DNA of 64,000 nucleotides. Origin: Gloeocapsa sp. PCC 7428. GTDB lineage: Bacteria > Cyanobacteriota > Cyanobacteriia > Cyanobacteriales > Chroococcidiopsidaceae. This document shows positions 1,490 to 18,972 of the stretch, in pieces. A model generated the notes under the pieces. That model did not search any database, had not been told where the DNA came from, and worked only from the letters and a program-made list of their open reading frames with translations. The DNA is taken from the NCBI RefSeq assembly GCF_000317555.1, contig NC_019745.1:1860001-1924000 (forward strand). Reading direction: 5' to 3'. Within the stretch, counting starts at the first letter, position 1. Each line of letters starts with the position of its first letter. The position numbers and the translations under genes were made by a program.

Positions 1490-1760
1490 TAGCTTAAAAA
1501 AAATTTAAGGAAAGATTGCCTTGTGAAAAACTTGTAAATTTCTGGGGAAAACTTTGGGAAAATCTGTGGAAAACTAAACAGGTTGAGGAAAAAAATATAA
1601 CTAAGTATAAATACTTTGTGAAAAACTTGGGACTTTTTCCACAAGTTTTCCACAAGCTCAAATCTCCAGAATGAAGGCAGGTAAAGTTTTTTTCGACTTT
1701 TTCCACAATTTCCACAGCCCCTACTACTACTGTAGAAAAGAATAAATATATTCGTAGTAG
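1490..1760. other. oriC: Probable chromosomal replication origin (oriC): DnaA-box cluster upstream of dnaN
   Basis: Four exact copies of TTTTCCACA, the cyanobacterial DnaA box, lie within 145 bases: 1565-1573 (reverse), 1635-1643, 1646-1654 and 1699-1707. Near matches lie at 1522-1530 and 1617-1625 (both TGTGAAAAA, reverse) and 1708-1716 (ATTTCCACA). The flanks are very A+T-rich. In Synechococcus elongatus the origin lies next to dnaN with clustered boxes of this sequence, and dnaN starts about 100 bases to the right here. The long leftward open frames across this stretch are low-complexity translations of the repeated boxes, not genes. Confidence 0.85.
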
Positions 1761-1855: not shown

Positions 1856-2995
1856 ATGAAATTCGTTTGCAACCAAAGTGATATCAGTACAAACTTGTCA
1901 CTCGTAAGTCGGGCGGTTCCTTCACGTCCTACGCATCCAATTTTGGCAAACGTTCTCTTAACCGCAGATGCACAACAAGGACAGGTGAGTTTGACTGCGT
2001 TCGATCTTAGCTTAGGAATTCGGACTAGCTTTGCTGCACAAGTCGAAACTGGCGGAGAAATTGCCCTTCCAGCAAAGTTACTCAATGACATTATCTCTCG
2101 AATGCCACAAGGAGAATTGACGATTGATGATGAAGGCGACACGCCGTTAAGCGCGACGATCGCATCGACTTCGGGAAAATATCAAGTGCGGGGTATGGGA
2201 GTTGAAGAATTTCCCGAATTACCTGTTGTCGAAGGTGAAACGATTTATCTTCCAGCAGAAGCTTTAACCGAAGGGCTACGCGGTTCTTTGTTTGCAACAA
2301 GTGCGGATGAAACGAAACAAATATTATCTGGACTGCATTTGACTTTAGAACAAGATACTCTAGAATTTGCGGCTACAGATGGTCATCGTTTGGCAGTTGT
2401 ACAAACAATCAACGAAACCGCCCCTGTGGAGACTGATCCAACGCGATTAGAGGTGACAGTACCAGCAAAAGCTTTGCGCGAACTAGAACGGATGCTAGGA
2501 ATGCGCGATCAAGGTGAATCATTGGCATTGTACTGCGATCGCGGACAAATTGTTTTTGAATGGGAAAATCAAAGGCTTACCAGCCGCACTTTAGAAGGGC
2601 AATATCCGGCTTATCGTCAACTGATTCCCCGTCAATTTGAAATTCAAGTCACACTCGAACGCAAATATTTACTCAGTGCGATCGAACGAATTGCAGTTTT
2701 AGCAGATCAGAAAAATAATATTGTTAAGTTTACGCTTGATAGTTCAAAACAAGAATTAGCTTTGTCGGTTGATGCACAAGATATTGGTAGTGGTAGAGAA
2801 TCAATGTCTGCACAAATTTCTGGCGATAGTATTGATATTGCCTTTAATATTAAATATCTAGTTGATGGCTTGAAAGCACTTCCTAGTTCAGAAATTCAAA
2901 TGCAGATTAATACGCCAACAAGCCCAGTGATTTTAACGCCTTTGGGTGGTGTAAAAATGACTTACTTGATTATGCCAGTGCAAATTAGGACTTAA
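1856..2995 (+). CDS. dnaN: DNA polymerase III subunit beta (sliding clamp)
   Basis: A 379-residue protein of normal family length. It forms the ring-shaped clamp that tethers the replicative polymerase to DNA. It starts MKFVCNQSDISTNLSLVSRA and shows the three repeated clamp domains (about 1-125, 130-250 and 255-379). Family landmarks are RPTHPILANVLL, FAATDGHRLAV, the EGQYPAYRQLIP linker and the C-terminal PVILTPLGG...YLIMPVQIRT strand. The ATG at 1856 fits the family N-terminus. It lies just right of the DnaA-box cluster and transcribes away from it, the usual cyanobacterial oriC-dnaN arrangement. Confidence 0.98.
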   Translation: MKFVCNQSDISTNLSLVSRAVPSRPTHPILANVLLTADAQQGQVSLTAFDLSLGIRTSFAAQVETGGEIALPAKLLNDIISRMPQGELTIDDEGDTPLSATIASTSGKYQVRGMGVEEFPELPVVEGETIYLPAEALTEGLRGSLFATSADETKQILSGLHLTLEQDTLEFAATDGHRLAVVQTINETAPVETDPTRLEVTVPAKALRELERMLGMRDQGESLALYCDRGQIVFEWENQRLTSRTLEGQYPAYRQLIPRQFEIQVTLERKYLLSAIERIAVLADQKNNIVKFTLDSSKQELALSVDAQDIGSGRESMSAQISGDSIDIAFNIKYLVDGLKALPSSEIQMQINTPTSPVILTPLGGVKMTYLIMPVQIRT

Positions 2996-18384: not shown

Positions 18385-18972
18385 ATGGATTTAGAGTCTT
18401 TACTACGACGCCGTCGTACTATTCGTGTTATTGGGTTTGATGATGCACCGTTTTCCCGCCCTAGCAGCAGCGGAAAAGTTAGTATTGCTGGTGTAGTTTG
18501 TGCAGATACTCGATTTGAAGGGATGGTTTGGGGAGAAGTGCAGCAGGATGGCTGGGATGCAACCCAAATCATTTGTCAATTGCTAGTAGGGAAAAAATTC
18601 TTGCCACAGTTGCACATTTTGCTGCTTGATGGTATTGCTTTTGGTGGATTTAATCTGGTGGATCTTCCCTTGCTTTCGCAAACACTGTCACTTCCATGTG
18701 TTGCTGTCATGCGACGCTTACCTAATCTTCAAGCAATGCAAGCAGCGATACATCATCTACCGCAATCTGCCCAAAGACTACAAATATTACAACGTGCTGG
18801 TACGATTTATCAGTATCCACCCTTTTTCTTTCAAGTATCTGGGGCAAGTCCTGAAGTAACGTTTGCCGTACTACAACGTTTGACAAATTGTGGAAAAGTG
18901 CCGGAAGCATTACGTTTAGCGCATCTTATTGGTGCTGCTGTCGTCAAAGGGGAAAGTGGAAAATCAGCGTAA
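18385..18972 (+). CDS. DUF99 family protein (endonuclease V-like fold)
   Basis: 195 residues from the ATG at 18385 (MDLESLLRRRRTIRVIGFDD). An ATG at 18361 is also possible. A longer frame reaching into the AI-2E gene is rejected. The conserved RVIGFDDAPF, VSIAGVVCADTRFEGM, LLLDGIAFGGFNLVDL and PEALRLAHLIGAAVVKGES segments define DUF99, a family related in fold to endonuclease V; activity is not established. One base separates its stop from the ATG of the next gene, so the two are translationally coupled. Confidence 0.85.
   Translation: MDLESLLRRRRTIRVIGFDDAPFSRPSSSGKVSIAGVVCADTRFEGMVWGEVQQDGWDATQIICQLLVGKKFLPQLHILLLDGIAFGGFNLVDLPLLSQTLSLPCVAVMRRLPNLQAMQAAIHHLPQSAQRLQILQRAGTIYQYPPFFFQVSGASPEVTFAVLQRLTNCGKVPEALRLAHLIGAAVVKGESGKSA

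Follow-up and report, generated by a model that had tools for sequence, protein, structure and literature searches.

Which part of this chromosome starts its copying, and does the group of DnaA boxes before dnaN mark that place or something else? The window, the whole 64,000-nucleotide stretch analysed here, spans C1:1,860,001-1,924,000 in a genome of 5.88 Mb on five contigs, the main contig measuring 5,431,448 bp. A first-pass annotation had read the locus as the likely chromosomal origin next to dnaN; this reading is supported, since clustering, a basal unwinding system (BUS), conservation and co-loss with dnaA agree. We have high confidence in positions 1522-1770 as the predicted chromosomal oriC of this Gloeocapsa/Gloeocapsopsis-type cyanobacterium.

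The boxes sit in intergenic DNA adjoining dnaN (1856-2995, forward strand), which encodes the DNA polymerase III beta clamp (379 aa; Pfam PF00712, PF02767 and PF02768), its closest named match coming from Gloeocapsopsis crepidinum (90% identical). An intact DnaA of 457 aa is encoded in the genome. Its gene begins at the contig start, 1.86 Mb from the candidate oriC, a distance which counts against the oriC reading. The dnaA locus was rejected as a rival origin: from 1.5 kb before to 1.6 kb after the contig start, exact boxes are absent and there are two sites with one mismatch.

A unique cluster of DnaA boxes

Four exact TTTTCCACA boxes, as previously claimed, lie at 1565-1707, 149-291 bases upstream of dnaN. 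The accompanying claim of at least three near matches was borne out by one-mismatch sites at 1522, 1543, 1584, 1617, 1708 and 1731, of which those at 1522, 1543, 1617 and 1708 are conserved. The region is also A+T-rich as described: 1490-1760 contains 67.9% A+T against 56.6% in the window, exceeding 98% of 271-base windows.

We aligned the window with 10 relatives, gapped cells being set aside. The left arm consists of near-match boxes TTTTTCACA (1522-1530, identity 0.88) and TTTTCCCCA (1543-1551, 0.94), both on the reverse strand. They are followed on the same strand by an exact box (1565-1573, 0.96) and by TTTTCCTCA (1584-1592), which at an identity of 0.42 is probably no conserved box. An A+T-rich element, CTAAGTATAAATA (1601-1613, 0.81), separates the left arm from the central boxes and is kept in most of these relatives. 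A further reverse-strand TTTTTCACA (1617-1625, 0.90) reads TTTTCCACA in many relatives. The central direct pair of exact boxes (1635-1643, 0.96; 1646-1654, 1.00) and the last two boxes, exact TTTTCCACA at 1699-1707 (0.96) and ATTTCCACA at 1708-1716 (0.90), one mismatch away from it and abutting it, are on the forward strand. Apart from the 1584 site, box identity thus ranged over 0.88-1.00, whereas spacer and flanks reached 0.37-0.53 (0.37 for the spacer 1655-1698, about 0.5 for the flanks). The one-mismatch site at 1731 was discounted as a box; it falls inside the trio tract described below.

The window holds five exact TTTTCCACA words where 0.84 are expected, the only one outside the cluster being at 18889; its one-mismatch sites show a mild excess (34 vs 24 by chance). 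At least three exact boxes within 1 kb occur at this site only in the 5.88 Mb genome (77 places inspected by eye). A stronger cluster elsewhere, which the first-pass annotation had named as contrary evidence, was sought genome-wide and none was found, the runner-up at 2,671,598-2,671,648 having one near-match besides its two exact boxes. A coincidental gathering of TTTTCCACA-like words in an intergenic region rich in A+T might be entertained because the nine-mer is barely enriched in the whole genome (77 exact copies vs 64 for the reversed pattern), but it is vanishingly improbable: none of 100 shuffles gave five exact boxes in the window, exact and one-mismatch sites number 10 in 250 bases against two at the next best place, and the conservation of the boxes across species already refutes it.

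The last two boxes lie in a predicted basal unwinding system

The first-pass annotation had overlooked a BUS at 1699-1732, in which the last two boxes lead through a GC spacer to four DnaA-trios. According to the available part of PMC8287927, a BUS comprises tandem boxes, a spacer of 10-13 bases from the better box and at least three trios with a central A, mostly 3'-GAT-5'. In the same portion of that paper, 1755 of 2070 predicted origins are reported to contain a BUS, and several DnaA homologs, that of S. elongatus included, to separate DNA strands in vitro. Here, a box within the mismatch limit is followed by a tandem box, and 13 bases (1708-1720, ending in the GCCC spacer 1717-1720) separate the better box from the first trio. 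The tract itself (CTACTACTACTG, 1721-1732, forward strand; 3'-GATGATGATGAC-5' on the other strand), the predicted start of unwinding, holds four trios with a central A, 3'-GAT-5', of which three are perfect. Its identity is 0.89 in three family members and 0.70 across the 10 relatives. The stretch after the trios (1733-1770, 76% A+T) is the predicted melted region.

We then searched for the core pattern TTCCACAN{2,7}CTACTACTA. It gave one match in its own genome, at the candidate oriC. Across the phylum, the reversed pattern was present in 4 genomes out of 386 and the pattern itself in 40. Its absence in exact form from the other 346 counts against the oriC reading. Thirty matching loci from these 40 genomes were examined: 25, our own included, precede dnaN by no more than about 0.6 kb, among them some from genomes where DnaN identity falls to about 42%; one adjoins dnaA, and four are spurious. 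The spurious matches (G058, G129, G133 and G352) have no box cluster, no dnaN and no dnaA; in G058, four BUS-like copies (L272-L275) lie inside an apparent insertion-sequence transposase gene and were rejected as a false positive.

A mirror-image GTAGTAG was also observed at 1754-1760, within the A+T stretch about 20 bases past the trios, forming a trio-like tract on the opposite strand which faces the first one. This motif was picked after inspection; a similar element is present in 13/13 same-order BUS loci aligned (two of which come from a genome or species that another locus already represents) and in 2/22 other BUS loci, a total of 15/35 vs 7.2 expected.

Cluster position relative to dnaN and dnaA

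Since DnaA acts as a transcription factor in other systems, and the boxes lie on an A+T-rich stretch at promoter-like distance (149-291 bases) before dnaN, they might be a DnaA-regulated promoter of dnaN and no origin. For 80 named dnaN loci, we counted the exact boxes lying up to 700 bases upstream (288 bases only for L070). At least three were present in 25, two in 1 and none in 54, and a box pair was found in 26 of the 30 genomes searched from this survey. Ten of the 54 box-less loci belong to genomes searched. Seven of these ten genomes have a cluster behind dnaA, starting 27-120 bases past its 3' end, and three are without dnaA. Thus, the absence of boxes before dnaN cannot be equated with origin loss, and that idea was rejected. 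Anabaena lutea FACHB-196, Trichormus sp. NMC-1 and Anabaena catenula FACHB-362 showed neither box pair nor dnaA match. The pair pattern missed G388, a genome with dnaA whose dnaN is preceded by four exact boxes.

In these seven genomes, cluster and dnaN are 0.58 Mb (G404), 1.42 Mb (G405) or about 167 kb (G400) apart, or on separate contigs (G392 and G399). In the last two the distance is about 4 kb (G391) and below 1 kb (G415); a limit of 700 bases was too narrow here, and these two provide no argument against a promoter. Other genomes have dnaA, oriC and dnaN adjacent, or, as here, oriC with dnaN and dnaA remote. A cluster at the dnaA 3' end is not the dnaA promoter, and one which stays with dnaN or with dnaA, varying by genome, is as such unexplained as the promoter of either. 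A dnaN promoter as the sole role of the boxes is accordingly quite improbable: the cluster persists in seven dnaA-bearing genomes where dnaN lacks an exact box at a distance of up to 700 bases, and trios, for which a promoter site has no need, are nevertheless conserved in distant cyanobacteria.

Box pairs are mostly lost together with dnaA

Among 291 genomes of the order, 239 match PF00308, 235 strongly and four weakly. The 52 without a match are far above the five free-living dnaA-less strains listed in section 14 of PMC7198777. Without regard to its position, a box pair was found in 222/235 genomes with strong dnaA vs 9/56 others (Fisher 5e-33, with shared ancestry ignored and with a pattern that also matches pairs outside oriC); in 13 dnaA-bearing genomes the box pair is missing. 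Restricting the 56 others to those at least 90% complete (45 of 56) left 6/45 with a pair. Contrasts in both dnaA and box pair were seen within genera (f6/g36, f5/g11, f7/g13 and f4/g33), one dnaA-less genome of f4/g33 retaining its pair. Full-length DnaA, searched in 12 dnaA-negative genomes (nine of the 52 without PF00308 and three named strains), was not found in any. Most relatives without DnaA have lost their box clusters too.

In an uncultured Trichormus (G407, L102), dnaA is broken by many stops and one box pair is left beside it. In the Azolla symbiont, dnaA is likewise broken, which has been related to symbiosis (PMC2900214, in its accessible part). Three named Anabaena/Trichormus strains (L051, L052 and L053; G393-G395) are also without detectable dnaA. 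If their assemblies are complete and the strains, judging from their names, are close to the symbiont and free-living, the symbiosis explanation becomes less certain; dnaA loss may predate symbiosis, provided that this kinship, deduced from names, holds.

Skew and the use of the origin

The GC-skew change by which the first-pass annotation proposed to check the locus, for cyanobacterial origins a supportive mark and no defining one, is absent: right-minus-left difference was 0.0015 (permutation 0.42) over 43 stretches totalling 0.86 Mb, or 16% of the chromosome. T-A skew at the site was -0.0156 (permutation 0.975), of a sign opposite to the usual one, and is counted against the oriC reading. 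No best-fitting origin elsewhere beat permuted data in the same 43 stretches (0.64 for GC, 0.12 for T-A), and no V-shape in GC, T-A or CDS skew was found in 40 stretches plus the window. The cumulative CDS skew minimum falls in the window, as a signal too weak to use. Irregular skew is described for most cyanobacterial genomes in the available part of PMC7198777, so the flat skew here is uninformative rather than contrary.

According to the same partial source, DnaA dependence has been lost several times in cyanobacteria, and certain dnaA-bearing species replicate independently of DnaA, from other or several origins. An intact-looking oriC is thus no proof of its use. Similarly, many Nostoc/Anabaena-type genomes keep the boxes with a degenerate trio tract, and boxes alone therefore do not prove origin use. 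The locus could accordingly be a relic to which DnaA still binds, the chromosome being copied mainly without DnaA from several sites as reported for Synechocystis and Nostoc PCC 7120; the flat sampled GC skew and the recurrent loss of DnaA dependence fit such a relic. We consider it unlikely, because DnaA is intact and the complete BUS is kept here, its three perfect trios included, while many Nostoc/Anabaena-type genomes have it in degenerate form.

The locus is very probably an ordinary origin, the site where chromosome copying starts, with its DNA-opening element intact. Box identity, clustering, linkage to dnaN, the unwinding element and conservation in distant cyanobacteria point to oriC, as do the co-loss of the cluster with dnaA and its retention in genomes where dnaN or dnaA sits elsewhere. 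A scheme for DnaA binding, filament growth and unwinding at this locus can be drawn by analogy with work on Bacillus subtilis and S. elongatus. DnaA would bind the left-arm boxes, the central boxes and the tandem pair 1699-1716, from which a DnaA-ATP filament would grow across the trios 1721-1732. The filament would open the A+T-rich stretch on the dnaN side, where helicase would be loaded before the departure of two forks.

A second box array precedes DUF2811

The genomic runner-up (C1:2,671,598-2,671,648; L033:11598-11648) is made of phased direct boxes at 21-base steps and lies about 300 bases before a gene (L033:11853-12161) encoding a small DUF2811 (PF10929) protein. The array pattern TTTCCACAN{10,14}TTTCCACAN{10,14}TTTCCACA, which can also match inside oriC, was found in 152/291 genomes, with none for the reversed form among the matches listed. 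By hand count, it is present in 146/235 genomes with strong dnaA vs 6/56 others. Among the first 19 array regions (L202-L220), DUF2811 was found in 10 and not in nine, one of these being oriC. In L222-L241, the 17 arrays chosen by look as the DUF2811 kind all had DUF2811 downstream (280-553 bases away in 16, 1612 in one), against 0/3 of those chosen as another kind.

As a less selected test, we turned to 30 class-level genomes, whose choice had not depended on the array, and placed one DUF2811 gene in each by tblastn. At least two boxes (at most one mismatch) were found in the 750 bases before the gene in 28/30, where shuffles gave 0.17 boxes, and a pair 18-24 bases apart in 24/30. The two misses were L253, with 274 bases available only, and L260, with a single box.

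The gene itself is mostly kept or lost along with dnaA: DUF2811 occurs in 224/235 dnaA-bearing genomes vs 13/56 others (Fisher 1.8e-29, shared ancestry ignored), whereas the neighbouring DUF3082 gene, used as control, occurs in 226/235 vs 52/56 (p 0.28). DUF2811 carries stops in G393 and is partial in G407, and it was looked for in G394 and G395 and not found. S. elongatus PCC 7942 also has a DUF2811 match. Against the link, 13 dnaA-less genomes keep DUF2811 (8/45 at 90% completeness or above; two of f7 and four of f4) and 11 dnaA-bearing genomes are without it. Searches for a phage copy, for a sequence match to a solved structure and, in one look through the literature, for a paper under the name DUF2811 found none. 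In our own reading of its sequence, the protein resembles a ribbon-helix-helix protein.

Because gene and array mostly vanish with dnaA, we see about an even chance that cyanobacteria have at least two conserved DnaA-box loci, oriC and this array among them, and that DUF2811 is a part of the DnaA system, which would be controlled by DnaA and may act back on initiation. A role of DUF2811 as feedback regulator of DnaA-oriC initiation is our conjecture.

A second kind of array (L207-L210, L214, L216, L217 and L237-L239) was observed in other families, at the 3' ends of apparent CDF transporter and/or guaA genes and often between converging genes, these gene identities being assigned by reading alone. 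Such arrays are perhaps DnaA control sites of the DARS/datA type.

Comparison with known origins

This work gives a probable origin for a chromosome where the sampled GC skew gives none. The intact box-spacer-trio element, readable from sequence, offers a testable forecast of which cyanobacteria still initiate through DnaA; the comparison finds box pairs absent from most dnaA-less genomes, within several genera; and it singles out DUF2811, so far unstudied, as a candidate partner in the DnaA system.

Origins linked to dnaN and bearing TTTTCCACA boxes are already established: in the available part of PMC4674748, 55 of 68 cyanobacteria have a predicted oriC flanked by dnaN, and most have the TTTTCCACA box. 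As a predicted origin, the locus joins that kind and, like those of Synechococcus elongatus PCC 7942, Anabaena PCC 7120 and Cyanothece ATCC 51142 in the DoriC/Ori-Finder set, has its TTTTCCACA boxes beside dnaN. It differs from that set by its four exact and four conserved near-match boxes, with dnaA 1.86 Mb off. The cyanobacterial BUS, likewise, has already been tested with S. elongatus (PMC8287927, same part). As in the BUS of Bacillus subtilis oriC, tandem boxes are followed by a 13-base spacer and at least three trios, mostly 3'-GAT-5'. Unlike the B. subtilis BUS and its counterparts, the predicted element described here has the extra mirror GTAGTAG about 20 bases downstream.
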